A stretch of 64,000 bases of DNA from positions 261,928 through 325,927 of the forward strand of contig KN817555.1 of NCBI GenBank assembly GCA_000827495.1. The letters are read 5' to 3'. The stretch is from Hypholoma sublateritium FD-334 SS-4 (lineage: Eukaryota; Basidiomycota; Agaricomycetes; Agaricales; Strophariaceae). This document shows positions 7,560 to 49,972 of the stretch, piece by piece (within the stretch, counting starts at the first letter, position 1; each line of letters begins with the position of its first letter). The notes beneath the pieces were generated by a model that did not search any database, was not told the DNA's origin, and was given only the letters and a program-made list of their open reading frames with translations. The translations under genes were made by a program, and so were the position numbers.

Positions 7560-9415
7560 ATGCAGGCACATTTAGGCGCCGGATCGGCTTCTTGCCAGAA
7601 GTGCGTCGAACCCTTTGGCCGACTTGAGGATTTCAGAGCACCGTTTATGGTAGCCTGTGGCCATGTCTTCTGCCTTCTGTACGAGCGATCGCTATCATCT
7701 ACCGCCGGTCTGGGTACTGATCCAACATCACACTTGGCACGCAGCTGCTTGCACGACGAGCGCGCCAACGCCGCTGCGTGCTGCCCGCTCTGCCGGACGC
7801 CGTACGACCGTACTGGGTATCTCCGTCTCGCAGGGCTCGCGGGTACGGTACCGCACCGGCTCCGGTCCTTCGACATGGGCGCGAAGCTGCGCGGCGAAAT
7901 CGCGCGTGTGGACGGCCTGACAAATGATATGCAGCTTCGGACTTTGCACGACGACGCGCGGCGCTTCCTGGACTCACAGCCGCGAAATCGTGTGAGTCCC
8001 TCCCACAATGCGGCGATCGACGCTGATAATATATGGCGATACGGCAGTTCACTGATCTAGAAATCAATGTTCGCTTGCTGGGATGCTTTCTCGAGGCGAA
8101 GGAGACCGCGCAGGCGCAGGCCACCGTCGTGAATGCTCTCGTGGAGCAAGTGCACCAGCTGGGTGCAGACAAGGCGCAAATGCACAGGCAGCTACGCGAC
8201 GCCGAGCGTCAATACGCCCGCGAGCGGGAGTACGTCCGGAGTCGCGTGTACGACCTCATACGACAGGACCCGTAAGTTCCCGCCTCTGTTAGTTTTATTT
8301 TATCTTCACGATTTAATTTTAGTGATGTAAATATCTCTGTCCCCCCCGTGGCGCATGCTGACTTTCCGCCGTAGTTCAACCTCCTCTCCGAAGAGGTTTT
8401 GCAATTCCAGGTTGACATCAACGACCTCCGCCAGGCCGTGCACGCGCTGCGTAGCGAGATGGACGCCTCGACCGCCTCACTGGGGACACCCACGGGGGGG
8501 CCAACTCCCAGCATCCGTGTATTTCCCGCGTCCCCCTCGCCCAGGCCCTCGACCCTGGGCGGTGCGTCAGGCTCTCTCAGCCCGTTGTCCATGAGCGCTA
8601 TTGGAGATGACTTCGGCGCCCTGGCGCCGCTCATGTATGGCCCGCGCCTCACGGTGCCGCACAACGAAGACATCACCCGCACCCGTGAGGCGGTGTTCGC
8701 GCAGATCCGGCGGCGGCGCTCAGGCGGGCTCCGTACGGGCGCACTACCCACACCGCCTCTACCACCGCGCCCGCCGGCGCGCTCGCTGTCAGACGAGTCG
8801 ATCACAACAGTAGGTGAGCTCTACGACAATGAGTTACCAGCGCCTCGCGCGCCGTCGCCCGCGTCATCATCCGCGCCATCGTCCGCGCCGTCCGACGACG
8901 ACGACGAGGGGGGCACAACGACGCCGTACTATTCTCCACTCTCCAACAGCGCCGGCCTGCCGGCATCGCCCCCCGACGTCCCGAGGACTGACCCGCGGCC
9001 CCCGTCTGCGGCGGCTTCGCTAGAGGACCCCTCCGGCACCGAGGCCGCGACGCCCGCGCTGCAGATACTACGCACCCCGGCCGCGCTGCGCCATGCGCGC
9101 TCGGTGTCGCGCCTCGTTGAGCGGCTCCCGATACACCTCGTGCAGTTGCTTGGACGCACACTTGGAGACCCACCCGTGCTGGACGGGGGCGCGGGCACAG
9201 GCGTGCTCGAGTTCTTTGAGCGCGTTTTTCCATATCGCGGAGAGCGCACTGCGAGTGCGCCGCCGGGATCCAGTGCGGTGCAGAGCAGCGGAACGGCGGC
9301 CACGGGTGATTTGGGGCCTGGGGTGGAAATGATGCCACCTGTCCTGGGGCCCGGAACACTTGATGATACGAGCGCAGGATACCAGGAGAGTGTGAGTGCC
9401 GGGCACGCACAATGA
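7560..9415 (+). CDS. RING-finger/coiled-coil protein, paralogue 1
   Basis: 544-residue spliced model: exons 7560-7678, 7745-7991, 8048-8271, 8323-8326 (4-nt microexon TGAT), 8375-9415. A complete C3HC4 RING forms only after splicing: CQKC, CGHVFC, LLC, then CPLC, residues about 12-57. A linker ends RRFLDSQPRNRF, followed by a long alpha-helical coiled coil (about residues 122-230). The remainder is Pro/Ser/Ala-rich and apparently disordered, with a four-Asp run, and ends in a short helical segment near LVERLPIHLVQLLG. RING proteins are commonly E3 ubiquitin ligases; that activity, and any target, is inferred. Without the microexon the coiled-coil exon and the tail exon are out of frame. The start was chosen by comparison with the three paralogues in this window. 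Confidence 0.85.
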
Positions 9416-9980
9416 CTGGTAACGGCTGCTGAGCTGCTGCTCCCTGCTATTGGAGAAGTTCTAATGACACTCCGAAGAACTGTGGGTCAGTGTTGTCCAT
9501 GTTTATCCGTCTGAGGTACATTTTTTGTCCCATGACTTGCTGTGTTTTTCTCTGCTCTGCTGTGTACACTTATACGCTACCGTAACGTCTACAATAGTTG
9601 TAATTTCAATGTATCATATACCAAGCTATATCTACTGTAAACCAAGTATCAATCGAGTGCAAATCGAGTGTAACTTTAAGTACTGGACTAATTTCAAACT
9701 AATTTTAGATATTGTTGATCATCACGAACCTTGGAGAGCTTTATTCGCATTTCAGTCTCCCGACCACTCCCTCCCGTACGCCGTGGCCACGTTCCTAGTC
9801 TCACCTGCTCTCGCTGCTGAGACGCTGTCAGGTGGACTTCGGCATCACATGATCGGCCCGCCCGGGATCTGGCCCTGATATTTTTTTGCTCCGGCAGGAA
9901 ATTTGTTGAATCCGCAAAGCAACGATGAAAGGCGTCTGCAACGATGTCCATAACCTATCCATCACAATCCGCATAATCCC
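9416..9980. other. Intergenic, no gene recognised
   Basis: About 560 nt between RING paralogue 1 and the SET gene, both on the plus strand. It should hold the 3' end of the first and the promoter of the second; no clear TATA box or other element was identified. Confidence 0.4.
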
Positions 9981-11223
9981 ATGGCCACCCCGTCGCTCTA
10001 TGACATCTTATCGACGCCTTACGGTGGACGAGGCGCATTTGCCCGAGAGGCGATACCCCAAGGAACAATGATCCTCGCCTGTGCCGCGCCGTATGCGCAC
10101 GTCGTGTACTGGGAATTCCGCCGCGAGGTCTGCGCATGGTGCTTTGCCTACTCCTTCGAGAGCGGTAAAAGCAAGTGGGCGGTGAAGCTGGCCGGCAGCG
10201 AACACGTAGGTGGCAACGGTGGTGTGTGGTTCTGCACCGACGTGTGCCGCGCGGACTACATACGCGAGCATGAGGTCTTCGAGGGCTATGGCGCCGAGTG
10301 GCGAACGGATATCAACATCATGGTTGAGAAGATGCTGGCCGGGAACAGCAAACGCACCACCGCCGGGCTCGCAGTGCCGCCAGCAGGTTTGGTGTACCTG
10401 GAGACCATTGTACCGACCGATATCACCCCAGAATATCTGGACGTTGCGTGGGCCGCTGCGCGGGACGTGTCAGACCAACGGCGGGGCTGGACGGAAGAAA
10501 TGACGGAGTTCGAGGTGGACACCGCGCGCTTTGTACTCGACGGCCTCCTGCGCAAGATCATCGAGGAGGCCAACCCGGGAGCGGAAATGCTAGACCGCCT
10601 CGTCGACGACACACCCGGGTATTGCGTCGGCGCCGGGCGCTGGGCAGACTACATGGAGCTGCAGGACAACGAGTACGCGCTGATGTATACCAACCCGCAC
10701 ATGCTCGCGTCGCACATCCGCGTGTATCGTTTCCTGCGTCACATCACTACGATGCTGCCGCAGGTCCGCAGCAAGCTCAACGAGAAGTCCGTCCATGTCA
10801 TTGAGCAACTGCGGAAAAATCTCGCAACCCCCACAGACACTCGGGCGCTCTTGGGGCGCGATTCAGGGAACGTATTTGGACTTTGGGACACGGCAACCGA
10901 TGAGGGGAGCGAGATGCTGGGATGGGGAGCGTTTGTGTTCGGCTCGTACTTCAACCACCGTATGTTTCACCCTCTTTGACTGATTCGCCCGCTAATCCAT
11001 CGCAGATTGCGAACCCAACCTCAAGAAGAAGCGGAACAAGCGCGGCGTCGAATTTTATGCGTCGAAGGACATTGCACCAGGAGAAGAACTATGCATCAGT
11101 TACGCAGACGGTGTTTCGGTGGAGGAGAGAATGCAGCAGCTGGAAAGCGGCTGGTTTTTTGTTTGTCGCTGTACCAGGTGTGCACGGGACTTGGAGCGAG
11201 CGTCTGGGACGCCATCTATCTGA
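9981..11223 (+). CDS. SET domain protein with MYND-like zinc finger
   Basis: 398 residues from exons 9981-10959 and 11006-11223. Near the N-terminus GRGAFAREAIPQG is the first SET motif. An inserted cysteine cluster (CAWC ... WFCTDVC ... H) resembles the MYND insert of SMYD/Set6-type proteins but has fewer obvious cysteines. The join at the intron restores the SET core FNHHCEPN, and further on GEELCISYADG gives the catalytic-fold tyrosine region. CRCTRC forms a post-SET-type cysteine cluster near the end. The family methylates lysines in histones or other proteins using S-adenosylmethionine; the substrate here is unknown. The start ATG precedes the GRG motif by a typical short distance. Confidence 0.88.
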
Positions 11224-12004
11224 TTTGGCGAACTCGCCTTCAGAGTGAAAATAACGTAGCTCCATGTTCCATCATCCAGTCTCCAAAGGATGCTGCATAT
11301 GTAGCTGCCAAGACCCCCGACTTGCTTCGGATCACTTTTCGCTCTTCAAACCTCGAGACCCGTACAAGACCCATAGCCTCAAAAGCGAATCGGATTCTAC
11401 TTCCACTGCCTACGTGGCTGCTGATCCGTACCAGGTCCAGTTTTCAGTGTCCCAAACCAACCGGCCAGTTTTTCAGCTTTAGTGCGAGCAAAATGGATGT
11501 ACGTGTCTTTGGGCGGTTACATATGACCACTTGAGCTGGTTAGCAGGTTGTGACCAGACACGTACGTGGAGAAGCCGCGCAAATAATTTCAGTGGAAAAT
11601 TAGCTGATCTCCATCATGTTCAGTTAAATTCGTTGTGACAAAAATCAGACCTATATTCTGAAATGTGGGTTAGGGTACCAAGAATACACATGAATGACAA
11701 GCATCCAATTATGTGCAGCCAGATCGAGTCATACCTTATGGCACCGTTCGGGGAGAGCGGCATGAATTGTTTATTTAAAGGCCCGGACACGCATTGTCAC
11801 GCACCCACTTTTCTCTTACTTTTTCTCTTGACGTTCAAGTTTTATAACCGACCCCAATTATTAGGCTTAGGGCCTTGAAATTTATCCTGTGAGTCTTACT
11901 TCCGTTTGGCTTCTGAGCTTGAAAGCTGATCTCAACTGTATGCAGTCATTTGTACAGTCTCTGTTTCCGCTTGTGCCAGCTTCTGGAAGACGCTCGACGT
12001 ATCG
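11224..12004. other. Intergenic, no gene recognised
   Basis: About 780 nt. It lies upstream of the ABCC transporter. I see only short open frames and no RNA gene. Confidence 0.4.
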
Positions 12005-18189
<6,185 letters not shown>

Positions 18190-23958: not shown

Positions 23959-26084
23959 ATGCTCAGTCTGGGTCCTGCTTCCAGCTGTGACATCTGCTAC
24001 GAGCGCTTCGGGCAAGATGAGAAAGCACCCTGGTCGATAGAGTGCGGTCACGTATTCTGCGGCGAGTGCGTGCAGACTTTTCATTTTTATCGCTGTCAAA
24101 TATTTAGCCTCGGTATGCAGATGCCTCCAGAATGTGAACGACCCCCGCGTCTGTCCTATGTGTCGATCTCCCTTCGAGGAGGAGTCGTGCATCAAGCTTC
24201 ATGTGGACATTGATGTTGTCCCTTCGGAGCCTACGGCGGCGGAGGCGGCGGATGCGAAGGAGGCGCGGCGCATCCAACACGCCATCGCTAGCATACCGGA
24301 GACAGGGGCGACTGAGCCCAGTCTACGGCAACTCATCCAAGAAGGAAGCAAGTTCCTCTCAGCTCAGCCTCGGAACTCGGTTAGCAACTCGCCCTCATTT
24401 TTTCATTCCCTTTGTTGATCGCCGCGTCGGTTATTAGTTTAAAGATTTGAGAAACGCACATAGAATCATTAAATACCTTTATGATGTCAAGATGCAACAC
24501 CGGCAACAGGCTCAAGCTATCGAGGCGGCCAAAGAACAGGCCAGCCAGCTAAGCAAAGAGAAGGCCGATCTGTTGAAGCAGCTGGAGAAGCTGGAAGAGA
24601 CTCGACAATACGAGAACGAGACGGCGACGGCCGTCGAGAATACTCTTCGTGAGCACTGTGCGCAGGCGAAGCAGGCTCAGAACCTTGCATCAGAGTGAGT
24701 CTCCCTTCTATAAATCGCCCATGCTTAACTCACTTTATCGGATAGGCAGGTTCGTTGTCACATATTTCCCTCACACCTATTAAATACTTACAATATATTC
24801 TAGCTGAAGAAACTCAAGCAAGAAAACGAAGATCTGAACGCAAAGTTGCAAGCGTCGTCCTCCAAGCGCTGGAATATCAAAACGGCCTATACCCCTCCGG
24901 AACCAGTGGAGCCAGTGGCAGTAGAGAAATACTTCGAAATGCCGCCCGCCTTCAGCAAGCTCGACATGCACAGTGTAGCCCTCCAGGATCCATCATCGTT
25001 TTTGATTTCGCCTCTCCCACAATTCACCAGCACTCTTCCGGCTATATTTGACAACTTTGCGCCTTTGCCTGAGCTAGCGGAAGACGAGGATGAGTCCCAA
25101 GGAGCAAGCACAGATGACGAGGACGAGGAGGCAGTTACGCCAGACGGCTCGCAGCGCCAGCAACAACTTCGGCCTGCAGAATCGCTCGACCTTAGGCCAC
25201 AGTCCGTCCCTGACAAGATAGAGCGTTCGTTGCCAACGGCCAGGGCACCCCAGGAGCCCTCAGGGCTGTCGCGCACCGCCCCTTTCCGGGAGCATCGGCG
25301 CAGAGAGCGATCCTCCTCGAGCCCCACGCGGCCAACGAGCCGCAGCCAGAGCCCCTTCGACAGCATAATTACGTCCACGTCCATCACTCCCCCGGCTGGT
25401 GCATTCCATCACGGCACCTCATCGCGGGACGCCCATCTCGCCCCGCCCACGCAGCTCCGCTCACGGCTGCAGGACCTTCTAAGCGACGCGCCCATTTCCT
25501 CGTCTCTGCCGTCCGCATCGTCATTCCCGTCGTCCCTGTCTCGGGACATATTCAAGGATGACCGCAACTATTCCGGATCCTCGCGATCCAGCGAGGCGAT
25601 CATGAACACCGCACCCCACGCATCGACCTCCCAGACCGTATCCACCAAGGCACCATCGTCGAGCTCGTTCGTTGGACCGCGGATGTCGTCGGCCAGCGCC
25701 GAGGCGAAGAAGCTGGAGGAGGAGCGACGGCGGAAGCACCGGGAGGAGAAGTACGGCGCGGACTACGACAAGGTGCCCGCCGACCCTGATCGTGAGCACC
25801 GCCGGTACCTTGCGTCTTCGGGCAGCGCCTCGCTGGGGACGTCCAGCGCGAGTCAGGCCGCATGGCGCGAGCAGCAACCATACGGCAATCCGTTATTTTC
25901 CAACTCCGCGTCCTCTCTCAAGCGAAGCTCTACCAGCAGTGGGAGTTATGGGCGCCCATCCAACCCTGCTTTGCAAGATCAAGGTGCAGCGCCCTCAAGT
26001 CGGCATCTATATGGCATGAACAATAAAATCCACTCCAATGGCTCCGCGCTCCCAGCGAGCCATGGGTCGTCGATACTCGCATGA
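23959..26084 (+). CDS. RING-finger/coiled-coil protein, paralogue 2
   Basis: 635-residue spliced model: exons 23959-24065, 24121-24379, 24438-24694, 24746-24749 (4-nt microexon GCAG), 24804-26084. The RING is CDIC ... CGHVFCGEC ... CPMC within the first ~50 residues, completed by splicing of the first intron in phase 2. A linker ends KFLSAQPRNSF, as in paralogue 1. A strong coiled coil with many Gln/Glu/Lys/Leu residues follows (about residues 123-215). The tail is Ser/Pro-rich with a DDEDEE acidic run and an alpha-helical, charged patch containing KKLEEERRRKHREEKYG. Without the microexon, translation stops at the next junction (GA+CTGA); retaining the second short intron also gives a stop. 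E3 ubiquitin ligase activity is inferred from the RING only. Confidence 0.88.
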
Positions 26085-30749: not shown

Positions 30750-33404
30750 CTAATGGTCTTGGCTCCACGACCGCAAAAACGTCTGTGGGACCATTGGCGT
30801 TGGCGCATTGATCGCGGTCGACCCCGCCGACAGCTCAAGCCCCAGTGCGTTCCCCGCGAACGCGGCCGCTCCCGGCGCATCCGCATGCCCCACCACTCCT
30901 ACTGGGCGGTACCCCGTCAGGTACGCCGCAGTGAGCACATCGGGGGAATCGCCGGGAGAGAGCACGCGCGTGTCGCGAAGTGCGCGTGCGGCGCGGCGCG
31001 GCGGCCCTTGGCCCGCATGTTCGTCCGCGCCCACTTGCGCTCCGCTGCTGGAGCCTGCCGGGTCAGCGCCTGCCCACGTGCCACCCCACGAAGGGATCGC
31101 GTCGGAAGTCTGCGACCGACGCACCTGCTCGCGCGAGGGCGGCGCGTAGTGGTCGTTGAGACCCCCGGACGCCGCCCCGCGGTGCCCATGGCGCGATGGG
31201 GCGCGCTCGGCGTCCTGCTCGAAGCTGTACGCGCGGCTGCTGCGAGTCGAGTGCCCGCCGGCGCCCCAGGCGCCCGAAGCGGGCGGCGAGCGGTACGTGG
31301 CTAGTCCGTGGAGGTCGTCGCGACTCGAGCGTGCGGACGAGCGTGCTGAGCGGTCGTCGGGGAGGACGCCGACCATCGAGTGCACAGGGCGCACGGGCGA
31401 GCGCGATACTTGTGATGTGGCCTCCTCGGAAGCGAGGTCGCTTATAGATGCCTGGCGTGTGCGGATGCTCTCGCCGTCCGAGTTGAGTGCGCGGAAGCCG
31501 CTGAATTCCTCCCCGCCCTCGAAGACCGCTTGCACGCCGAGTCGGAAGGAGGCGAGGCCTGGAATAAGACTGCCCGTCGTCAGGTGCGATGGCGCGGGTG
31601 TTCCCCATGAACCGCTGTCGAGCGTCATGAGCGATTGCGCCGACGGTGAGGGCGGCGCCGCAGGCACACTGCTGGCTTCTCGATGGGAGGGCGGGGGCGG
31701 TGGCTCAGCGTAAGGCGTGGCGGCATGCGTTCGAGGCACGCGAGGAGAGGACGATGAGGTTCCATTAGAGCGGCGCGAGGACGCGGCTTCGGGGCCGTCG
31801 TCCGACAAAATAGATGCTAGAAGCGGGTTCGAGTGATACGTCCGCCCATGCGCAGACGCTGCTGAGCCGCGCACGCCGTGCGACCGCGACCGCGACCTTG
31901 GAGAGGGGCTGTCCTGTGCGCGGGACGATGCGGACGAAACGATGGACGACTCTGCCGCAGTGCTCTGCCTGTGGTGCGTGTAGTGCAGCGGACTCTCCCG
32001 GCGGACGGGCGCCGAGTACGGCTGGCTCTGGTATACATTTGCGCTGGTGGGTCTATAGCCATCCGTGGGTTCGAACGCGCTCGCTGACTGCACCACGTTG
32101 ATGCGGCTTGTGTGCGTCGTGCGGGGCTCTGGGAAGGGTTGGAAGTGCGACACGGGCTCCCGCTGGCGCGAGCCCATGCCCAGCGCGGCCTCGGCCCCGC
32201 TCACAAACCCGGTGGAGTACTCCCTAACCGCGTCCTCCACAAGCATATATGGATCCACCGCTGATGCCGCCGCCGTATTCTCGAAGTGGTACGCGAGGCG
32301 GCTGGCATGGCTTGGGGGTGATGGCTCTCGATGTGCGGAGATATGCGGATGCACGTAATGCGAGCTGGACGCGACTTGGGGCGAGGCTCGGTATCTCGTA
32401 TCGTCGTACGTATGTCGGAGCTCCGATGACTGCGTCCGCCGTTTCCGGCTCTTGCGGCTCTCGACCTCAAATTGGTATGGTGCTGCTGGCGATGAGGGTA
32501 GTTCCATCATTCGAACACCTGACGCCGACTCCGATAGTGCTTGCTCGAAGCTGGGTAAGTTAGGCGTCGAAACAGGCTGTGGCGGCGATGGGAGCGGGTT
32601 TTTTATGTAGGGATACTTGTAAGTAGTGTTGCCCTGCAAGCGGTCAATTTGGGACTTTTGGTCGCGAATCTGCAGGATGTTAGATCTGAAAATCATGGAT
32701 TTATAGACTGCTTACTTCTCTGTAACAATATTCTCAGTAGGAGACACCATTCATACACATAAAAACTCACTTTGTCATGTGGTCGATCTGGACCAAGTAT
32801 TGCGAGGTCACTACCACCGTATTGGTGCGCTCCTGAGTCATGGAAGCCTGCATGCGCTGCAGTTCGTCCTGCATCTTTCTCACCTTGCGCGCGAGGTCTA
32901 CCTCATCTTCCTTCATCTGCTGTGTGCGCTGCAACGCCCCGCGCGCCTTACGCAATGCCACGCACTGCCCAGGTCGTGAGCACAAAACTATGGCGGACGT
33001 CTCAGGAGACTCACCGACTCCTCCGACCGGTGCGCGAGCCACGCATCGACCTCGCCCACGACCTCCGCGAGCTGCTCCGGCGGCGTGTCCCATGAGATGA
33101 CGAGACGCTGTAATAGATCGGTCTCCTTGTGGTCGTCGATGTCCTCCGGCCTGTCGACGTGCAGCCGCTTCATCTTGTTCGGCTGGTATACATGGCGGCA
33201 CAGGGGGCATAACGGTGGCGTGTTGGTGTAGAGGCAGCTATGATCTCTTCCCGGTCAGCTATGCTCATCTTCCGCTGTGGTATGCACCCACTCGCGACAG
33301 AATATGTGTCCGCAGGCAATGGCGTGGGGCCGCTTGCCCGCGGTCTCCCATGAATACTCCGAGAGGCACACATCACAGCGGCTCGACGAATGCAGGACGA
33401 GCAT
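30750..33404 (-). CDS. RING-finger/coiled-coil protein, paralogue 3
   Basis: 817-residue model: exons 33292-33404, 33015-33237, 32771-32964, 32716-32719 (4-nt microexon AGAA), 30750-32669. It begins MLVLHSSSRCDVC, nearly the same N-terminus as paralogues 2 and 4. The RING is CDVC ... CGHIFC RDC ... CPLC, completed by a phase-2 intron. A linker (AWLAHRSEES, then a phase-0 intron) leads to a coiled coil rich in Lys/Glu/Gln with VRKMQDELQRMQ. The 640-codon tail is Ser/Pro/Arg-rich and probably disordered, with SRSRSHGVRGS-like patches. An alternative splice that skips the microexon and uses an acceptor at 32686 is also in frame, so the microexon is less certain here than in the other copies. E3 ligase function is inferred. 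Confidence 0.86.
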
Positions 33405-34178: not shown

Positions 34179-36419
34179 CTACGCCACTCTCGCCCCCTTA
34201 CTCACCAAATACGTCAGCAGCTCCTGGTCCTCCCCCGCCCGCAAATGCGCTGCCAAAGCGGTACATGCGCGCTGCCGCGCCGCCAGCAGGTGCGGGACCA
34301 GTGCACGCACGGGCGCCGCATGGCGCGCGTGCGGTCCGATGGTCTCGCGCTGTGCTTCAGGGATAGGCCCGGAGGCAGACTGTGACAACGGCGCCGGAGT
34401 TCGCTTCTTAATGAAAGCATTCGCGGCAGGGAGCGGGGGCGTGCTATACGCGGCGACGTCTTCTGGGGTGAGCTTATCCGATGCGCGGGGAAACGCCAGC
34501 GCAAAGAAAAGTTTGCAGTACGTCAACAGCCGCTGTAGACTATTCAAAGACACGAGTGAGCGCCGGGCAGAAGGGGTTGAAAGTGTACTCACGTTCGGTA
34601 ATTGGCTATACGTGGCAGGAGAAGGTTTTAACAAGAAGAAAGGTTTCCCATGCGTGGGCGTACCTCTGATTAATAGTCTGTGCCAACGAACGAGGAGAAC
34701 GATACCCAAGTACATGCTCCCCGCGAGCCCCAGCGCCCTTTGAACCACATTGTCATCTTCACTCAGTCCCATCAGCGTCCCAATTCTATTTCGCTTCCAC
34801 AGGATGCCCAGCGCCAGTGCCACATTCGCCCCAATGCCCAAGCCACCCCCAATCGCTTTGAACTGGGCAGCGGCTTCCTCTTCTTCCGGCAGCGCGAAGC
34901 ACCTCTTGGCAAGCGGGCCGGTGATGTAACCCGGGAGGTGGAGCAACAGCGGAGGCGCGAACAAGACAAACTGGAATAGGGAGAGGGGAAGCCTCTTCAG
35001 AAGAGTCAAGGTAGGAAGCACAAGCAGGCTGACTCCTGGGACAGAGTGAGGCGGTGGCACGTCCAAGACGGACGCCGCGGACAGTGGAAGAAGCTCTAGT
35101 AGCACAGAATGCCTGATGTGCGCGTAATGTAGCAGTGCATAATACTTCGTCAGGGTGGATTTGAGATGCTGACTGGGTTCCTCGGGTGCGTCGAAGACGC
35201 GAACAAGTCTGCGGATTGGTCAGATTGGGACAGCGTTTGCGCGTCGTTGCACCTGCCTTTGTGAGATTTCTACCCAATCTTTGAGAGGGATTTTATCCTC
35301 GTCGTCCCAAAGAATGCTCCGAGCCATCGACACTGCGCAGATAGTGTCCCTATTACCACATTAACGACATTATCCAAGCAAATAGAGTAAGGCATACCAG
35401 CCCAGTGCGTTGACAGTCATATCTCGCATTTGTGTTTCGACCTGCGCCATGATCTTCTTGACCACGGCTCTAGAGCTTTCGTTACGGTCTCCGTTGAATA
35501 ATTCTGCTGCATACGAGTCAATGAAAATAGGTGCCCCATATCTTCAGCCGATCAGTACACCCGCAGTCCCCAGACAAAACATAAAACCTACTTGACCGAA
35601 ACCTATAAAGTATCAGCTCCCCATCCAGAAAATCCGCAATCCTCGCTTACCCTGCTCAGATACCGCGACTTATCGGTATACACGACAGCAACAGGAATAA
35701 TCCTTAGCCCGGTCTCTATCTCCGCTTCCACCGCTTTGCCCTTCCCCTTCCCGACGTCTTCCCGCTGCCGGTCCACCTCCTGCTCGTGCACGTACCGCAC
35801 GTATTCGACCGCAGCCCACGCCGCACCGGGGAGCATCTGCATGATGGCCGCCTGCGTGTAGCTCGTACCCTCTGGGAACACGCCGACAACCTGGCGCGCA
35901 GCGAGCGCGCGCGACGTATCGCGGAACAGCATCGCGCGCGTCGCGCCCTCGTCTATCCCCGGCGGCGCACGCGGTACGCACGTTGACGACGACGGATCCT
36001 GCGTAGGTGGTGCGGGTGGAGAGCTGCCATTCGGGTTACGCTTCACGGGGATCGCACCCGACGAGGAAAGGATCGCACCGGCCAGCGGATTCGCGAACAT
36101 CGTAGACTTGGCCCAAAAGGAAAGGTGCCTCCGTTGGGGTATCGTCATGGCTGGTACTCTGGTGAGCGTTTGACTCCAACACGATCGCGAACCTCACCTA
36201 GAGTGGCAATATCTATTATTTCATTGTGGTGTGTCGATGCACTGCATGGAAATGTGTAAGTACCATGCACTGCGCACGCGTAAGCTGAACAACATACATA
36301 ATGAGGGGTCCGTCCTCGGGAACGTTCTCCACGCCTTGAACATCGATCTCCGAGTAGTACCCAGTCACCGTCCAGTCTGATATCTTGCGCAGAGCACGGT
36401 AGACCAACTTGAGTTCCAT
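34179..36419 (-). CDS. Glycerol-3-phosphate/DHAP O-acyltransferase (SCT1/GPT2 type)
   Basis: Minus-strand gene starting MELKLVYRALRKISDW. Spliced exons give the acyltransferase blocks: block I ASTHHNEIIDIA (H-x4-D catalytic motif, on a short exon near 36190-36235), block II GAIPVKRN, block III VGVFPEGTSY, block IV LRIIPVAVVYTDKSRY. After the catalytic half, a hydrophobic region (SLFQFVLFAPPLLLHLPGYI and neighbouring segments) matches the membrane part of fungal Sct1/Gpt2 proteins. These ER enzymes acylate glycerol-3-phosphate or DHAP in the first step of glycerolipid synthesis. Near 34.6 kb the open frame could be read through, but two introns around a 13-nt exon (34593-34605) give a more natural joined sequence (LIRANYRTLQRLL). 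The C-terminus is Ala/Arg-rich. Confidence 0.9.
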
Positions 36420-39009: not shown

Positions 39010-42000
39010 TTGACTGAGAAATCTCAATCTGGAACAAATACTGCTCATCTCTGTAAATTAGTTGATAACCTTATGCAAATGAATTTGACGAGTTGTGAAT
39101 ACTGAGCTGTGAATATTATCATCCTATTCAAATCCTATTAGTGTTTTCCGATTATTCAGACTTCACTGCAGCAGCTCACAGAAATTGAACTGCTATACCG
39201 TCTTAGCACGCACTCAGCGCAAGTTAATTAGTCGTCTAGGTATTTAGCGTGGTAAGTGCTTATCTTCATCACTGTGCGAATGAAGTTATCGATGATGGAT
39301 TCAATCTAATCTGATTCAGTGATAGTTACATCTGATTCTCGCTTAAATCTTGCTTGAATCTTATGACTGTCACTGTGGTTGGTCACTGCTCGAGCTGGCC
39401 ATTTCACATTTATACCTCTCCGTCTTTTCTCCTCTCCATCACCCTACGAAAACTTATGGAAACAGACCACCCAAACCTGAAATTTGAAACCTCCTTGTAC
39501 TTAACTGTCCCTCCACCTGTGCCTATAATCAAGTGATGTCGGCCCTACTTCCGTCATGAAATTATCCTATGGACTTCCCAGGGGCTAGAGAAAACCGAGC
39601 GAATATGAGGACCTTTGGACATTTGACCCATAGACCTTGTCTCGAACCGTATTTTTACACAAACCAACCGACCCTTCAAGTTCATTCGTTCGCAATGGTT
39701 TGGCCTGCAGGCGGTTACCGCTGACAGTCCGCGGGATTACTGAACGGTTCGTAACAGTTCAGTATTGACGGCACACAGCAACTCTCAGGGTACCCTCTTC
39801 TGTCACCGGCGTGGTCGTAATATCACATCAAAACCTTTCTCTCCGCCTCCCCGAGTCCCGCCCTCCCTGCGCAGCTAGAATCGTCCCTGGTCTCCGAAAT
39901 GTTTCAATCGAGTTCACTGATTTCTTCCTTTGCACTGGGGGCTAGACGTGCCACAATAATTAGCCGACGAGCAGACGATATACACGCTTCACACGAAGTT
40001 CCGACGGATCCTGGGGAGTCGGGTCAAATGGCTGCGCTCGGCTCCGGAGCTTCCAGCGTCACACTTATGGGTCCAAGGCACCGACGGTCAATGCGATAAA
40101 ATAGTAGGATTGCTTCTACTGCCCATCTTTGGGAAGCAAGACGCGTACCAAGCGCCGTGGCTCACAGCGGATCTGCTCCGTAAACGCGTAATGAAACGCC
40201 GAGTCGCGTCCTGTTATTTTTGGACACGGCTTATTCGTTTGCCTAGCTCGCTCACTCTATTGCTTATTTTTCTGACCCCGCAACCACGCTCTACCTTCAT
40301 GCCAGCTACTATTCGTCAGAGAAATACCCCAAAAGGATCATGAATCGCCGCGCCCCTTCTAGCCGTGGCTCCTACGACGCGCCTAAAAAACGTGGGCCGG
40401 AACATTTCAGCTTCCTCGTGAATGACTTGACGCGATTCTGGACGCTGCGATCCATTGCAGTATCTCAGGGCACATCATACTTCTGGCCGCTAAGAGGCCC
40501 CTCGTCATCTACCCCTCTGGAGACGAAGCGAATTGTTTGACGCTGACATCTCAGGAGGTCCACCTCCCTTCCCTCACCCACTCTGTCTAAATTCCGGTGT
40601 GTACGACCCTAAATATGGCAATTCTTCTCCTTCTGGATGGCCAATAATCTGACCGTATTTTGATTGATCTATTCGCGTTTTGTCTACCCGGCGACAAGAA
40701 CGTGTAGGTACCTATGACGAAAGCCTCATCCCCAACTGGTCATTTTAATCCTTTCCATGCCTTCTCCGCCCACGGGCCTGACGTTCGGACGACTTTGAGC
40801 TACACGCTTCTACAGGGCTTTCCGCTGGCAAACGTACTCTGTTCAGTGTTATTGTGCGTCATGTTGTCTGTCATTGTGCTGTCATCATCGATGACGAGTT
40901 TACATTCCAAGATATCTTCGTTTGGGATCTACTAGTGCTTCGTTTTCTTCTATCCAGTACAGCGCAAGCAAGATCGATACTCGCGCGGTTGTCCATGTTA
41001 CAGGCGCCAAACTTCCCAAGCACTCTACGCACGCACCTCTACTTGGTTACTTCCATAATGCGATGGGCGAATTGATACTTTTTCTTTTTTTATCCTATCT
41101 TATTCATCTTTGCTGATACAGGCAGACTGTCTCCCTCTGCTGCCCATGTCCTCGTACATTGACAAATTTTGGATCAGCCACTCAAGAGCTCAACGTCCAA
41201 GCATTCACATATTCTCCACAGAAACAGAAGGATGATTTTCACGCCCGCGATCAATTGTGAATCAATTATCTATCCACTCGTGTAGGTTTGCCTCGTGTTT
41301 GTGCTCAGGTCAACCAAACCTTTTCAGCCTCGCCGTCGATCTTAATCAACTGCCATTATTTACACCCTCTCCCACTTGTGCGTTCTTTTTGCGCGATATT
41401 TGCTTCAGTCGTGGTAGATGCTCACATACTTGCGATTCTGAGAGCTCTGCATCGAGCAAATCTTATCATCCGCAGTTTTTGACCACGCTCGAAGATCAGC
41501 ACCACGCCCTCTTGATAATCTAAGAATATATTTCAGATTACTCTAGATCAATTCCTACGTTCATAAAATATAGTCGACCATGGGTGTCAAGCCTGGCCAA
41601 TTCTCTGGAAACCCCACCCTCCGAGGCCTGTGAACTGACCATGTTACAGGTGAAGCTGTGCCCTATCAAACAATCTTCACTTCGATCGACTTCCCCGTCT
41701 ACTATAACGAAGTTGGGATAGCTGGTGTGTTTACCTAACATCAACCAAACATCAACTACACTCGTTGCTTCAATTTCCGTGGACATGAACAAGGGCCAGG
41801 ATTGCCGCATATCGGCAGTTATCAGCTCTCTCAACACATGTTTATAGCGCTCACCGAACGTTCATGAGAAGCGCCACATTACTGCATCCTGGGCGTCGAT
41901 ACTTGTTCAGATAGGAAGTTTCTCGCTGCAGTCAATCCCCATCTAATCTTTTTAAGGTTGTGACTTTCCCTCGTCTGATTAAATGCCGCTCGCTTTTACC

Positions 42001-43099
42001 AGTGATCATGCATGATTATTTCGACGCATTCCCGTGCTCATATTGGATCTGCGAGGCTCTCAAAGGGCAAATTTTTATCGATGGGGTGATAATGTCAACC
42101 GGATGGTCAACCGGGTGGTCAGGCTCTTGGAGCAAGTGGACGCAATTGACAATCTTGTGAGCTTCAGAAGAGCGAATTAAATAATAACATGATTACTATC
42201 GTTAATCTTAACGCGAGGCATTCTGATTACATTCAATTGAATAGTGGTTATAGAGATAATTTTAGCACCATGTAGCTTCTCCAGCTGGCTGGGATGCCAC
42301 ATTGACTTCATAAAACCACGGTTAAGCAAGACTGAGCCTTCTTTCTATCTTTAGCACTCTTCCCGGGAACACAAGAATAAAATCCAAAGCAATTCCGCAA
42401 TACTCTACCGAAATATCTGAAGGTTATCACCCCATCGCAGTGCCATCTCAACTTGAATCTCTATCAAAGTTAGACTAATTCTGTAAACATCTGGCGTTAA
42501 TAGCTTACTTGCTTCCTTGAACAAAGATTCTGCATATCCGTTTGGTGCGAATATTAAAAGACTATGGGCGATCGAAATTATTCCAGAAAATGCGTTCTAT
42601 GAACTAAGTGGCCCAGCTATCTATAAGTATGACACAGCATCGGGCTGGATAGGATGAAGTGGCGATTAGCTTTATCGCACTGATTTCTGTCTTCTTGTAA
42701 GTCGAACCCAGCCCACCGCCATGGCGGACCTCCCCACATTACGTGCCTCAGTGCTTAAACTAACGAAGCTGAATTAAGCAAGGAGCAGGTACCTCTATAA
42801 ATAACCACCGGGGGCTGCATAGGCTGCCAATTCTGGGATGCGGACGGATGATTGTGCGGCGCTCACGAAAACCATAACACGCTGCCATGAGGCGTCCATT
42901 CGCCTTCCGAGAACTCTGTTAATGTCTGGAGGGCGTACAATGGCACCGTCACCAAAGCGCACAAATATGCATAGTGCTCGCTGTCCTTTTGACTGACAAT
43001 CAGACTAGAAGTCCCCTTCCGGGCCTTTGTGAGGTGCCTAGGCCTCGAAACTCCGACATCGGGCTTTTTTAAGCGCATCTTACAACATAGCGAGGGGGA
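39010..43099. other. Long intergenic region with unassigned coding-like scraps
   Basis: About 4.1 kb with ordinary base composition. Near 40430-40590 (+) one frame reads GHIILLAAKRPLVIYPSGDE followed by a short tail and a stop; it looks coding-like but has an in-frame stop about 15 codons upstream and no start. It could be the remains of a mobile-element or other gene. The rest shows only short frames and no RNA gene. Confidence 0.3.
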
Positions 43100-45529
43100 T
43101 GGCGCATAAAGGCGCTACGCAGAAGTTAATCTTCCAAGATTATGGGTACGTGGTACCCCGCGCCGCCGCGCTTGCGCGGGGGGAATTAATGACCCAGGTC
43201 CCCCGGGCCCGCCTTGGCGGCGCTAGACGTCCTAAAATCTCCAGCGTCCATGCCTGCCTGCCACGCGCGCGGCGCTATCTCTCGCTGTCGGTGTGCGTCA
43301 CGCAACACGTTGCGCGCTGTTAGCGCGTCGAGTCGCGACACGCGTTATCCGCGCGACGTCGACAGCGCGCGTGAAAGGCCGTCGCTCTTGGGCGTGAGAG
43401 GGTGCCAAAAATAGCGCCCGTCGAATAGCGTTTGTGCGTCGTTAGCCGTTAGTATGCTTTGTGCGTTTGAGCGCCGGACAAAGGCGCAGGTACGTGCAAG
43501 GGCGCGGCGCTTTGAGCGGGTGTCAATCGTGCGCGTGACGAGTGACGGTTGGCGCGGACGCGCCGCCCCTTGGACTACATTGGGTGTGTCTATCATTGCG
43601 TGTCTGTCATTGGTATGAGCGTGCGCAACTGTGATATTAAGTACATTGCGCCTCGCAGGCAGCGCCCCGCGCCTGGGAGCCCCGCACCCGCAAATATCTG
43701 CGTGACACGCGCGCCGATAAGCAGAAACAGACGACGATCATGACGCACATTGCTCACTGCCACTCCCTGCCTACCGGCCGTCGACGTGAAACGACACCCA
43801 CGCACCGCCGCACCCAGGCAGGAAATAGGGCTGCTACTGCAGCGATCGCTGCACCGAGGATGTGCACACGCACAGAGATTGTGCGCGGAGAGATTCCGAT
43901 TATCAGGCCGTATCAGGCGCGCCCGTCGCGGAAACCGCGCGCGAGTGCTGAAAGGACCTACATACGGGCGCCGGTGTGATGGGCAGAAAATGTGATTTGA
44001 TCCGGGCCCCTTTGGCCCTTCACACACTTCACACTGCACACCGCACACCGGGCTCGGAGTCGGCGGCGCGTGCTGGGCAGCGGAAGGCAAACCGAGCACG
44101 AAAAGCTTACGCATACTTACTGTGCACGGAAACGGAGAAACAGACGAGGGACCTGCGATCCGGGCCCGCGTGCCCGGCGACCCGCGCATCCGCGCCGAGG
44201 GGGCTGGCAGGTGCTTATACATTTTCCGTCCACCATACTTAGTATACGAAGTAATCGATCGCCAGCGATCGCGCAGGATTCGCATTTCTTATATACGCCT
44301 CGGGCAATGTCCCGCCAATCGGAGCCCTGCCCAGGAGACCGTGCGTCGGCGTCTCCGGGGGTGGCACAGCGGCACGCGGCGCTGTGTTCCGGTCTGTGCA
44401 GTACAAAAAGTATATGGTAATCTAGATATTATCTGCGCCGCTGGTCAATAGCCTCGCGCGCCGCACGCGCATCGCAGCATCGCAGCATCTTCGCGCTCTG
44501 GTGCAGTGCCACCCAGCGCACGCCCGGTGCACCGCCGCTGTTCATCTACACACGATATTACCTCCCCGCATCCCTATATCCCTAATTTACACAGGCCACA
44601 CCTGACGCACGTCCACGTCCGCGGCGCGCTATTCTCGTCGCCGCAATTATAGCGGTGCACGCACGGCGCGTGCCGCTGATAGCCTGATAAGCAGGGAACC
44701 CGGCGCGTATACATAGCCCGCTCGCACGCGCTGGCAGATGACGCGCGCATCTGGCCGGCGCCAGCAACTCGGAGAGGAGCGAGATGACGATGGTCACTGA
44801 ACGTTGAACCCTTGACGCGGCTCGAGAGAATTTTAATTTCGCCGGGGCGGGACATACGTTTAGGCGTGCGTTTGCCGTGGGGAGATCAGGTATCGGGCGT
44901 GCGGCGCGTTGCGTTGCGGATTGCCCAGCGGTCGAGCGACGCGGCCGTGCTATCCGTTTACCGCACAGACCACTGGCCCCGTGTGTCGACGACGCCCGCC
45001 GAGCAATTACCCTAGTAGCACGCCGCGGCATTCAGACAGGTCGGCCAGGCCGCGCGCCAGGCCGTTGCCATCACCGCGTGCCATCACCGCGGCGCCGCCC
45101 CAGCGCCAACACCCAAAGACATAAATGGAAATCCACCCCAAATCCGGCGCGCAGGCCATGGAGTGAAGGCGTCGCGCGAACAAACCGACATCTGCACCAT
45201 AATACGCCGCCAGCACTCCGCGGTCCGCGTCAGGTACTTAGAGCAGCCACGGGCCGCACGCAGACGCCGGCCACGTCGGAGCCCGTCTGTCCATCCTACG
45301 TGCACGGAGGGCCACGGCTGCGCGTATCCGGATCACGCACCGCTCCGTACGTGCGCGTCGCGTGTCGAGCGCGCCCGTCGAGCCGCTGCCTCGCTCGCAC
45401 CCGGACGCAGGGGACCGGTACTGCGCAAGTACTGCCACGAGCCCGCCGACGCGGCGGGGGCCCAAATCGGCCACGCACAGTATACTTGTTCTGCGCGTAC
45501 TTCAGAGAGGGATATGCAGCGTACGCTGC

Positions 45530-46915
45530 CCGCAAAATGCGCATATTGAGGTATCCGTGGCGCTCGCCGCGCGGCTCCCCACCGTCCACACCAATGCACC
45601 CACCGAGTCAGCCAACCACACCGCGCGGCGCATTTACTTAATCCTAAGCGCCAGCGCGCGCAGGGGCGTGTTGTCCTTATTGGGTGTCACTTATCCTGCG
45701 TCGCCCTGCGCTTCGAACAACCCAACCCAACCCGCCAGCCAGCCCCGATCGCAATCGCACACCGTGCACATATTATATACACAACCTAAGTTAAGATGCC
45801 CATATCGGGTGTGGCCCGCGTACGCGCGTCCCGTGTCCCCTTGGGTTCCGCCCCATTCCCCCCGCTCATAGTCAGCGCGCACCGGCATACGCGTCGTGAC
45901 TCGCCCGACGCGCGTCGCCGTCGAGTCAGCGCGGCGTCGGACGGCGATGGCGCGTTCGTTCATCCGTCTGCCCGGCTGACTGGGCAGGCGCGAGGTGCGG
46001 TGCCGTCCTGCGCGCCTCTCTCTCTCACACACACACACACAGAGGCCCGGACAATGCCCATATCGAGGTATGGTCTCGCGAGTCCGCGCGGCAGCGCCGC
46101 ATCTCCCATGTCCATAACAGGGCATCCGTCGAACCAGCCGTGCGGGGCATTTAATTCTACACCGTGCATATTGCCCTTGTTGGGCGGTTGTCCTGCGTCG
46201 CCTCGCGCCCGTGCCCACGTTAAACAACCCGATCCCGATCCTGCAGACGCATATACACCACACACCGGGTGCGGTGAAGTTAAAATGCCCACATCGGGCG
46301 CCCGAGGGTGCGTCTCCGCATTTCCTATCCCCTTGCGTGCCCCCCTATTCCCCCTCGCGCCGGGCGAGTCAGCACCGTCAGCGCCCACCCCATGCGCGTT
46401 GTGACTCGACGCGACGCCGTCTGATTATTAACGAGGCGAACCAGCGGCGGTGGTGGTGGTGTGTGCGTTTCCTTCGGTGTATGCAGTGATAGTAGAACGC
46501 GCGCCCTGGCGGGCGAGCTGCGCTCGCCGCGCTTAGCGTTGTAACAGGCATTCGTCGCGTAGCCCGGTATGAGATGTGTACATACGGCGTCGCGCAGATG
46601 CACCTACCCACCATGTCCATAATGGGCGGTTATCCCTACAGATAAAATACCCATATCGGGCGTTGTGCGCCCCCGTCTCCGCGCGGTATCCCCTTGCGTG
46701 CCACCCCTTTACCCCCGTACCCCTCGCCCTCGCGCCGAGTCACCTCTCCGCGCCCATGCGCGACGCAACGCGCGTCTGATTATTAAACGGGTCGAGTCAG
46801 CGCGGCACGATTTTGATCCCGGGCGCGGCGTTCGACGGCGTCGGCGGTGGTGGTGGTGGGGGTGCGTTTCCTTTTCGGTGTAGTGGTAGAACGTCGGCGA
46901 ACGCGCTGGAACGCG
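45530..46915. repeat. Diverged direct repeats, unit about 360-520 bp
   Basis: Marker sequences recur in the same order and strand: AATGCGCATATTGAGGTAT (45536) and AATGCCCATATCGAGGTAT (46053); GATGCCCATATCGGG (45795), AATGCCCACATCGGG (46283) and AATACCCATATCGGG (46646), each followed by a CCCCTTG(C/G)GT-type stretch; CGTCTGATTATTAA at about 46415 and 46770, each followed by GGT runs and GTGCGTTTCCTT. Spacing varies, so copies have diverged with insertions and deletions. No coding content. Confidence 0.65.
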
Positions 46916-47807
46916 CTGGTGCGACGCGCGTCCCGTCTTGCGCAGTCAGTCGTCCCGTCCCGCGTCCCGGCGGTGGGTAAGCTCGCAGACGCGCGGCACG
47001 CGGCGCCCACCCAACGCATGCTCAGCCAACCGGCGGTGGAGCCCGGCCGCGCGTGCAGCGGCGTAGGGCAGACTCGGAGGATGCACTGCACCGCAGCGCA
47101 GCGCAGGGCGCAGCTAGGGGCTCTGCGATAATTAAGTTTGGGCGATCGGGCTGCTGGGTGTGCAGCAGCAGGAGCAGGAGCCTGAGGGTGGTGTGAGGCG
47201 TGCGTGCTGCAGTCTGCAGAGGGACGGGGCCGGGGCCGGAGGTGGTGGGAGGGCCCGGAGGTGGAGGTGGTGGAGGTGGTGGGGCCGGCGGAGGAGGGAG
47301 GAGTGGGAGGGCGGGAGCAGAATCGCACGCTTCTCATTTAGCGCTGATGGCGCCGCCGCCGGAATCAGGTACGCCGCCCACGCGCCTCCACGCGCGCGCG
47401 ACGCGTAGCGCCCGCCCGTCCGCCCGCGTGGTGTCACCGGCGGCTTCCATTCAATTTTTGTGCGTACCATACCATACATACACAGCAGGCGCCACGCCCG
47501 TCCGGTGCTCTAAGCAACTTTGAGGAAGCGCGCCTTTGACGACGCGCGGCGGACGCCGAGGCCGCTGATTAATTGGTGCTAGTAGGCGTGGGTGCGGGCG
47601 TACATAATAGCGCATATTGGACAGACGCCGACGCCGGGGGCTGCCGGCCCTGCGCGGGCCCACGCTTGGCGCGGCGACGGGGTTCTGCGCTGGGCTTTAG
47701 GCCAGGGCGCGGTGGGAGGGCGGGGCGGGGAGGCGGCGATGGAGGGGCAGGGAGGGCCAGGTGCTGAATCAGCGCTGGGCCTCGTGTTTCAGCGGTCGGG
47801 GGGCTTG

Positions 47808-47821
47808 CCCTAACCCTAGGG
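47808..47821 (+). promoter_or_regulatory. Telomere-repeat-like box upstream of RING paralogue 4
   Basis: CCCTAACCCTAGGG, two telomere-type CCCTAA units, lies about 120 nt before the ATG of paralogue 4. Such telo-boxes can be bound by telomere-repeat factors at internal promoters in some eukaryotes. A role here is inference. Confidence 0.35.
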
Positions 47822-47940
47822 TGACGGATAACGATCGGATCGGGATCTGGCCGGGATCTGTGTTTGTACACATGGGACAATGCGCCGGGGGTATTTATCC
47901 ACGGCTGCCCTTCGCCCTTGCCCATCCCCCCCCGCCAGCC

Positions 47941-49972
47941 ATGCTCACACTCACCGCCGGGTGCGCGTGCGACGTCTGCGCCGAGGAGTACGCCCCGCAC
48001 CGGCTGCCGCACTCCATCCCCTGCGGGCACGTCCTCTGCGCGAGCTGCTGCACGACCATCGCCGAGAAGACGAACCCGCGCCTGTCGCCCGTGTGCCCCT
48101 TCTGCCGCGAGCCCTTCGCCCAAGACGCCGTGCGCGTCATCCGCATGGATTTCGCCACCAGCGGCTGGACGACCCCGCGCCGTGTCCCCGCGCTCGAGGC
48201 CCTCACCGACATCAATTCCGACATCCTCCAGCGCAAGACCGCAAGCCTCTTCGCCGCCCCCCAAGCCGCCCGCACCCACGTCCGCCGGCTCGAGGACAAG
48301 GTCTCGCGCATCGCCGCCAAGAAGTGCTCCGTCGAGGAGGTCAACACACTATACAAGGAGCTGCAGGAGTGGCTCCTCGCCGAGAAGGACGAGCAGGTGC
48401 GTCCCTGCCCCGGGTGCACACGAAAAATTTCTGACGCCGCTTGCAGACCAACTCGCTGTTCCTCAGCGCCGCGCTGCTGCGCGCCATCCTCATGAACCAC
48501 GTCGCCCACTCCGAGGCGAGCAAGGCCGCCAAGACGTCCGACGCGAACCTGCGCAACAAAATCGCCGACCTCGAGCAGAACAACACTCGCCTCGACGCCG
48601 AGCTGCGCCGGTGCGTTTTTCCCCTTTTTTATCGCCCCCGTCGGGGCTTTTTCGAGCGTCTTTTTTGTGCGTTGGCACGCTAAAAAAACGCAACCCCATT
48701 TTCTGCTTGCGTCATCTCGTTTGTGCTGAGCTGACTTTTTTTTATCCCCTTCTTCTGTTGTTGAATGCATCAGACAAGTGAGTTATTTCCGGCCATCTAT
48801 CGCGCACAGCCCACTGATCGTGTCCCCCCCCCCTTGTTCCCTGCTGCCGCGTGTTTCAGCGCGCAAACTGCAAGCAGCTCCAAACAGAGGTCAACCAGCT
48901 GCGCGCGCTCGCGTCGACCGTCTCCGCCGACCTGCCCCCCTCCTCCCATACCCAGTCCTCGCACACGCAGTCCGCCACGCCCTTCCCCTACACCTCCTCT
49001 TATTCCACGCCGCCCGCGCCAGCGCAAGCGCAAGCGCACTACCCCTCCTCGAGCGCAAGCGCCGCCGCCGGCCCCACGCCGCTCGCGCGCTTCAACCTCC
49101 TGCACGCGCGCTCCGCGTCGATGTCCTCGCGCCCCGCGACGCCCGCGGGCATCGCGCTCGCGCACTCCGCGCACCCCATCTCGCCGCCGCGCTCGCATAC
49201 TCCCGCGCCCCCCCGCTCACACACGCCCGGGCCTACTTCCTCCGCCTCTGCTTCTGCTTCTGCCTCCGCATCGGCGTCAGCGTCGTCCCCGATGAGGAGC
49301 CACACCCCCGCGCCGCGCAGCCACACCCCCGCCCCCACCACCTCCTCTGCATCCGCCTCCGCCTCCGCCTCGCCGATGCGCTCACATACCCCCGGCCCGT
49401 CACCCGCGCGGAGTCACACGCCCGCGCCCGGCTTGTCAAGCGCCAGCGCGGCGGCGGCGGCGCATGCGCGGGCGCACACGCCCGCGTCGTTCTCGTACTC
49501 TTCGCGTAATAACTTGAATGGAGGAGCGCCGCCGGTGCCCGGGATGCCCGCGCGGTATACGCCCGGCCCGCCTGTGAGTCCGTCGTCTGGGATGGGGTTG
49601 GGCGCGGGCTTCGGCGTGGGGCTTGGGCTCGGCTCTGGGTCCTTCACCAGCAACCTCGGCGCCGGCGGCCCCAACACCAACACCACCACCAACACCACCC
49701 CTAATAACACCACGAGTCTCTTCCGCTCGCAAACCCCCGCCCCGCCCGCGCTCGTCCCCCCGAAGCCGCGCCGCCTGAGCCTGAGCGGCAGCCCGCCGCG
49801 GGCGCTCGCGCGCGCGGCGTCCGCGGGCGGCGGCGGGGAGGAGAAGGACGCGCTGTTTGCGCGGTGGCTGCCGCCGAGCTTGCTGCATGTTGGTGCGGGG
49901 GGTGGGGGGGAGTATGGTGGGGTAAAAGGTGGGGAGTATGGGAAGAGGAGTGTGAGTCGGGCGGGGCGGTAG
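47941..49972 (+). CDS. RING-finger/coiled-coil protein, paralogue 4
   Basis: 578-residue model: exons 47941-48396, 48447-48610, 48774-48777 (4-nt microexon ACAA), 48860-49972. It begins MLTLTAGCACDVC. The RING is CDVC ... CGHVLC ASC ... CPFC, in one exon, so the RING intron found in the other copies is missing. A linker (EWLLAEKDEQ, then a phase-0 intron) leads to a coiled coil with LRNKIADLEQNNTRLDAELR. The tail has repeated RSHTP(A/G)P units and (Ser-Ala)n runs, then a Gly/Asn/Thr-rich part. Codons are extremely GC-rich, unlike paralogues 2 and 3. Its two introns around the microexon are longer (163 and 82 nt). Without the microexon the frame is lost. E3 ligase activity is inferred from the RING. 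Confidence 0.85.

Follow-up and report, generated by a model that had tools for sequence, protein, structure and literature searches.

How do four neighbouring genes of a mushroom join two exons whose reading frames do not match each other? The question is raised by a 64,000-nt stretch of the Hypholoma sublateritium FD-334 SS-4 genome (GenBank assembly GCA_000827495.1, contig KN817555.1, positions 261,928 to 325,927 of the forward strand; hereafter "the window"), which contains four paralogous genes, here designated A to D, encoding proteins with a RING domain, a coiled coil and a long tail. In each gene the exon that encodes the coiled coil (coil exon) ends in phase 2, the tail exon starts in phase 0, and between them lies a stretch of 4 nt flanked by AG and GT. 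We conclude that this stretch is very probably a coding exon in each of the RING genes, spliced constitutively and likely by successive removal of the two introns around it.

Gene models and the predicted microexons

The four genes were rebuilt from the DNA, guided by the frames in which the RING, middle, coil and tail exons are read. The resulting models are as follows (coordinates refer to the window; a slash marks an exon-intron boundary):

7560..9415, + strand: gene A, RING-coiled-coil paralogue, 5 exons, 544 aa model
8048..8271, + strand: gene A coil exon, phase-2 end, CCC/GTAAGT
8272..8322, + strand: gene A upstream intron, 51 nt
8323-8326, + strand: gene A predicted microexon TGAT, completes Pro and encodes Asp
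8327..8374, + strand: gene A downstream intron, 48 nt, branch-like CTGAC
8375..9415, + strand: gene A tail exon, from the rebuilt gene model
23959..26084, + strand: gene B, RING-coiled-coil paralogue, 5 exons, 635 aa model
24438..24694, + strand: gene B coil exon, phase-2 end, AGA/GTGAGT
24695..24745, + strand: gene B upstream intron, 51 nt
24746-24749, + strand: gene B predicted microexon GCAG, completes Glu and encodes Gln
24750..24803, + strand: gene B downstream intron, 54 nt
24804..26084, + strand: gene B tail exon, from the rebuilt gene model
30750..33404, - strand: gene C, RING-coiled-coil paralogue, 5 exons, 817 aa model
32771..32964, - strand: gene C coil exon, phase-2 end, AAA/GTGAGT
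32720..32770, - strand: gene C upstream intron, 51 nt
32719-32716, - strand: gene C predicted microexon AGAA, completes Lys and encodes Glu
32670..32715, - strand: gene C downstream intron, 46 nt, branch-like CTAAC
30750..32669, - strand: gene C tail exon, from the rebuilt gene model
47941..49972, + strand: gene D, RING-coiled-coil paralogue, 4 exons, 578 aa model
48447..48610, + strand: gene D coil exon, phase-2 end, CCG/GTGCGT
48611..48773, + strand: gene D upstream intron, 163 nt
48774-48777, + strand: gene D predicted microexon ACAA, completes Arg and encodes Gln
48778..48859, + strand: gene D downstream intron, 82 nt, donor GTGAGT
48860..49972, + strand: gene D tail exon, from the rebuilt gene model

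The order of coil exon (phase-2 end), 4-nt exon and tail exon (phase-0 start) is the same in 4/4 genes, and in all of them the predicted microexon has AG before it, GT after it and restores the frame of the tail. The exons TGAT, GCAG, AGAA and ACAA, with these flanks and a phase-2 donor, had been proposed in an initial annotation of the sequence and were found exactly where it had placed them. The coding sequence through the microexon amounts to 594 nt (A), 627 nt (B), 534 nt (C) and 624 nt (D), all multiples of 3; the initial annotation had the same values for A, C and D and erred in gene B, where its "623+1" should read 623+4. The intron preceding the microexon is exactly 51 nt long in 3/4 paralogues (8272-8322, 24695-24745 and 32720-32770).

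Genes A, B and C score 33.2, 47.2 and 31.7 bits, respectively, against the RING family PF14634 (cut-off 27.9 bits); gene D reaches 25.2 bits, under the cut-off, and several of its orthologues carry a precomputed PF14634 assignment. A PDB search returned mostly RING-domain matches, with RNF4, TRIM21 and TRIM32 as the best. Gene D has no intron inside the RING, hence its 4 exons compared with 5 in A, B and C. The start of its tail exon (48860-48880) lacks seven residues, the length of one coiled-coil heptad, which are present in most of the listed orthologues.

To estimate the expectation by chance, the sequence between the outer donor and acceptor of each gene, which were left in place, was shuffled 4000 times with its dinucleotide composition preserved, and both introns were required to be >=40 nt. 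An in-frame AG-N4-GT arose in 3.0% of the shuffles for A, 1.7% for B, 9.8% for C and 25.3% for D (product 1.3e-5), and any in-frame exon of 1-31 nt was possible in 11.6%, 7.4%, 30.4% and 90.0%, respectively (product 0.0023). Under a stricter filter for donor quality and for a branch site >=12 nt from the exon, the fractions for a 4-nt exon fell to 0.25% (A), 0.15% (B), 1.65% (C) and 1.5% (D). Frame repair in all four genes by chance is unlikely, the identical size four times even more so, and a chance origin of the four microexons was rejected on the product of 1.3e-5.

Junction residues in the relatives

Homologue searches returned 31 proteins for B, 205 for D and 18 for C; the counts given below for D cover the 120 of its 205 matches that were listed and used, namely 20 transcript-like proteins and 100 others. 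As transcript-like we regard proteins known solely from "lgn" or "jgi" sources and encoded, on contigs of 1.2-9.0 kb, by open reading frames (ORFs) that continue across the junction. We take "lgn" to denote contigs assembled from public sequencing runs. The named species among the matches are mushrooms and their kin, presumably from Agaricales, Boletales, Polyporales and other orders, and the closest among the listed D matches are from Pholiota, Gymnopilus, Flammula and Psilocybe.

All 20 transcript-like D orthologues possess exactly two residues at the junction, the second of which is Gln in 18 (the residue encoded by ACAA in gene D), Ala in one and Leu in one. Among the 100 others, 39 end with Gln, 22 with Tyr, 3 with Cys and 18 with other residues, and the remaining 18 have a junction of another length. 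The two sets differ both in the frequency of Gln (18/20 vs 39/100, Fisher p = 3e-5) and in that of Tyr/Cys (0/20 vs 25/100, p = 0.013). The Tyr/Cys pairs are QY, RY, KY and RC, all of which are possible as NNG-TAY or NNG-TGY; they fit an exon prolonged by the first 4 nt of a GTAYGT or GTGCGT donor, as expected if the microexon was missed and the donor shifted. Two comparisons within Suillus illustrate the point: the transcript-like P0120 and the S. occidentalis model P0135 are identical at 410/411 positions, the sole difference being Gln/Tyr at the junction, while P0116 and the S. fuscotomentosus model P0122 show two differences in 413 positions, one of which is again the junction Gln/Tyr. Since a change from Gln to Tyr needs at least two base changes, a difference in splicing is the simple reading of these pairs.

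Several misread models expose one edge of the exon, and no single one exposes both. As to the right edge, the S. hirtellus model P0124 has Q-Q-V-R-Y at the junction, i.e. GTN CGN TAY after a Gln codon, as fits a codon abutting the donor; P0103 (Mycena chlorophos) has RQVSQ, where Gln would be followed by GTN and probably by AGY, and the C-type P0160 (Pleurotus pulmonarius) has TQVTC. As to the left edge, P0048, P0084, P0094 and P0097 have I, S, V or F and then R-Q, which fits AG followed by NCAR; these models seem to read through part of the upstream intron. Both junction residues are absent in 2/100 genome-derived D models (P0102 and P0147).

Of the 31 B matches, 10 carry the N-terminal half and thus reach the junction. 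Seven of them can be aligned there, and six are ungapped relative to the microexon model (the transcript-like P0003, P0008 and P0014, and the models P0005, P0007 and P0015); the genome-derived model P0006 drops ten residues at the junction that its close relative P0005 keeps, and P0018, P0021 and P0026 (Mycena/Favolaschia) are too diverged to align. For C, 16/18 matches cover the junction and 10 are ungapped (P0152-P0159, P0162 and P0163; judged partly by eye), with Glu or Gln at the junction in four, Lys in one and Tyr or Cys in five. The initial annotation had argued that the preserved size, phase and position of the exon point to selection or to a splicing constraint, and the D orthologues, including those from Suillus, support this by keeping the exon at the protein level. 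In the basidiomycete relatives, where it proposed to look for the same structure, the protein letters agree with that structure for D (20/20 transcript-like) and B (6/7 alignable); some of the C relatives depart from it (see below).

Alternative splice paths and rival explanations

For each gene we enumerated all in-frame, stop-free GT-AG paths with either one intron or two introns around an internal exon of 1-60 nt, allowing donors from 60 nt before the coil-exon end and, as the farthest acceptors, those 60 nt inside the tail. There are 30 (A), 38 (B), 37 (C) and 153 (D) such paths, among them 9, 5, 17 and 7 open single-intron paths, respectively. The paths were scored with profile hidden Markov models (HMMs) built from 6 B relatives, 8 C relatives and 20 transcript-like D relatives, and with weights for the splice sites. 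By the HMM alone, the microexon path ranks 1/38 in B, 1/37 in C and 6/153 in D, exceeding the best single-intron path by 18.9, 7.8 and 4.1 bits, respectively; its rank of 26/30 in gene A was obtained with the profile of B, not of A itself, and is uninformative. By the splice-site score, the microexon path has the best mean intron score among the enumerated paths in 4/4 genes. With both scores combined it is top in B, C and D, and in A it stays 0.4 bits behind a path that shares the same microexon and uses a later acceptor. A second possible 4-nt exon in gene B (GTTC, via the next AG) is open and scores lower. The microexon is needed for the frame: its skipping causes a frameshift in 4/4 genes, and the open alternatives have worse splice-site scores.

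Among the rival explanations, the one that survives best, improbable as we consider it, accepts a real 4-nt exon and supposes that its alternative skipping acts as a regulatory switch, yielding either a full-length or a truncated RING-coil protein. Such a switch, also suggested in the initial annotation, would agree with the frameshift caused by skipping in all four genes, and the Trichoderma Xlr2 report (PMC11121469) offers an ascomycete precedent with a 20-nt microexon. No skipped form was found among the 20 transcript-like D or the three B orthologues, a weak argument inasmuch as ORF callers could miss truncated forms, and the models that do lack the residues (P0102, P0147 and P0006) are all genome-derived. 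Moreover, the skipped products would reach a stop 73 (A), 1 (B), 22 (C) or 145 (D) residues later, so that their ends differ from paralogue to paralogue, and the skip product gives the impression of an error rather than of an isoform. The switch is thus unsupported, and on the 0/20 skipped forms and the paralogue-specific early stops it was rejected as the leading reading.

According to another explanation, which we regard as quite unlikely, the microexon exists in H. sublateritium only, and the Gln of the orthologues belongs to a tail exon extended by 4 nt at its start through a tandem acceptor (AG/NCAG/). In P0048, P0084, P0094 and P0097 the NCAR could indeed be contiguous with the tail. However, P0124, P0103 and the C-type P0160 show Val (GTN) after Gln and then further residues before the tail, and in the window, inspected by eye, none of the four tail acceptors has an AG 4 nt ahead of it. 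The Val directly after Gln in the misread models led us to reject the tandem acceptor in the orthologues.

It is very unlikely that there is no microexon and that the coil exon is spliced directly to the tail at a second GT, 4 nt downstream of the first (GTNN/GT). This path is open in gene D, where it would keep GTGC and replace RQ by RC, and the Tyr or Cys that it predicts occurs in the 25/100 non-transcript D orthologues mentioned above. On the other hand, the shifted donor leads to an in-frame stop in A, B and C (GTAA, GTGA and GTGA, respectively), it is a poor GTTTTT in D, Tyr/Cys is found in none of the 20 transcript-like D orthologues, and the Suillus transcript-like proteins have Gln where the near-identical gene models have Tyr. 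Equally unlikely is a different single intron in each gene, with a shifted donor or acceptor, that joins coil and tail in frame: open paths of this kind exist in all four genes, the best one in C (same donor, acceptor TTTTCAG 16 nt upstream, retention of ATCTAACATCCTGCAG and insertion of SNILQ), but against the orthologues the best of these fall short of the microexon path by 18.9 bits in B, 7.8 in C and 4.1 in D, the intron scores are lower in all four genes, and 10/16 C relatives have no insertion while the other 6 are, by eye, unlike SNILQ. Both models were rejected on HMM bits, in-frame stops and splice scores.

The following points weigh against the constitutive 4-nt exon. Its presence in the orthologues is read from protein letters rather than from DNA, and we infer that the "lgn" and "jgi" entries are spliced RNA from the ORFs that run through the junction. 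Extra or different residues at the junction are found in 6/16 C relatives (P0160, P0161 and P0166-P0169), and the C profile was made from gene models, 5/8 of which have Tyr or Cys there. The splice-site weights are generic and were chosen by us. The D profile prefers five paths with internal exons of 39-46 nt to the microexon path; the seven tail residues missing from D may reward such filler exons. In addition, genes C and D each have the open alternative described above. Under the stricter chance filter B, C and D pass and A fails, its branch-like TTAAT being, by eye, <12 nt from the microexon, and no orthologue of A was recognised in the match lists of B, C and D, no search with A itself having been made. 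The microexon of gene A is based on its own DNA.

Mechanism, age and relation to known microexons

We propose that each flanking intron would be recognised as a unit by intron definition, 3/4 of the pairs being ~50 nt long. An exon of 4 nt has no room for U1 bound at the following donor and, simultaneously, for the factors of the 3' splice site, so the two introns would have to leave one after the other. The AG/GT ratchet point of classical recursive splicing is absent in A, C and D, and only B (GCAG/GT) fits it. The exon would be older than the duplications that made the paralogues, and it would persist because the loss of a single intron, or of the 4 nt by themselves, breaks the frame. Gene finders probably make up for the 4 nt that they miss with a donor shifted to the following GT (GTNN/GT), with Tyr or Cys replacing the real codon. 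CAG or CAA before GT pairs with U1, and since the conserved Gln codon would provide just these triplets, its conservation may owe as much to splicing as to the protein. The microexon is probably constitutive, old and often misannotated; as to its history, we consider it reasonably likely, with less confidence than for the exon itself, that a 4-nt exon older than the duplications has been retained in every paralogue since at least the split of Agaricales and Boletales, as a constitutive exon of mushrooms in general that short-intron splicing handles, and that its codon is wrong in a large share of the public mushroom gene models through one predictable error, the donor shifted to the GT within GTNNGT.

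A search of the 46 Mb assembly with all four proteins, in which counts are lower bounds, found at least four members of the family plus one broken copy of D on contig C207 (L025 6917-8968); the remaining matches are weak (C14, E 0.018; C38:82103, E 0.02; C1 and C24, E >1). In the broken copy the RING contains a stop and the frame is interrupted; it lacks 92 nt of the upstream intron and keeps TTAG/ACAA/GTGAAT, and it shares the absence of the seven tail residues. Its downstream intron and coil exon are 81% and 88% identical to those of D, and beyond the gene the resemblance to the window soon stops. Since this copy is broken, it carries little information on selection. No relative was found in the collections of viral contigs and genome contigs searched. 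Different paralogue types lie on contigs of equal size within species of Galerina, Hebeloma, Phlegmacium and Leucocoprinus and within Amanita polypyramis, from which the RING cluster looks old.

Other features of the window include a U2 spliceosomal RNA gene at 5855-6043 (minus strand; Rfam RF00004, 112 bits), ~1.5 kb before gene A, and a run of N at about 61830-62390. An ORF at 35603-36193 (minus strand), adjoining gene C, resembles by eye the acyltransferase part of P0158 from Agrocybe chaxingu, a database protein that has a C-type tail as well. P0158 probably represents two neighbouring genes fused by annotation in A. chaxingu, and the adjacency of gene C and an acyltransferase-like ORF looks conserved.

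In plants, small coding microexons are conserved and include a cluster of size 4 and phase 2 (cluster 5, RECQ3); splicing around them is delayed and stepwise, and most are missed or wrong in annotations (PMC8831610, Yu et al. 2022). The exons described here resemble them in being tiny and frame-restoring, in being often misannotated and, as far as the protein letters of the relatives show, in keeping their size, phase and position across distant species, but they belong to a mushroom RING family with four paralogues in one cluster, where most flanking introns are ~50 nt long. The proof from RNA is direct for the plant microexons and indirect here, and it is in plants that one flanking intron is often spliced late (PMC8831610). 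The single-nucleotide exon of Arabidopsis APC11 is constitutive and was demonstrated experimentally, the GenBank cDNA having been misannotated, and its authors find intron definition with successive intron removal most plausible (PMC4674806). Our exons share with it a size too small for exon definition and the proposed model of sequential removal; they differ in being 4 nt long and predicted from DNA, while that of APC11 is 1 nt, in one gene, and experimental.

Among fungi, Trichoderma Xlr2 contains a coding microexon of 20 nt, included in a glucose-dependent manner and missed by the JGI model (PMC11121469). The mushroom exons would likewise be fungal coding microexons overlooked by gene models, yet Xlr2 is a glucose-regulated ascomycete case and the RING genes show no sign of regulation. 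The P450 genes of Phanerochaete, another basidiomycete, have very short exons (the shortest of 6 bp) beside small introns of 45-55 bp (PMC1184071); there the microexons are spread over P450 genes and not over one family, whereas those of the RING genes are family-bound. In passages of two further papers (PMC3990503 and PMC4014442), microexons appear just as a read-mapper setting. Our literature search, which reached few subscription papers and preprints, found no conserved 4-nt microexon of fungi. Compared with the known microexons, the fungal setting, the retention in four paralogues and the predictable annotation error are new; tiny conserved exons as such are known from plants.

If the reading as a constitutive 4-nt exon is true, the RING family offers a clean natural test of the minimal size of an exon that a spliceosome working with short introns and intron definition can handle without skipping, and this test exists in four genes of one genome and in their relatives. 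It would also point to a repeatable error of fungal annotation, as GTNNGT, a common donor, always offers a second GT in the compensating frame and thereby hides the missing 4-nt exon, and mismatches of the Tyr/Cys type between fungal gene models and transcripts could reveal more such exons.

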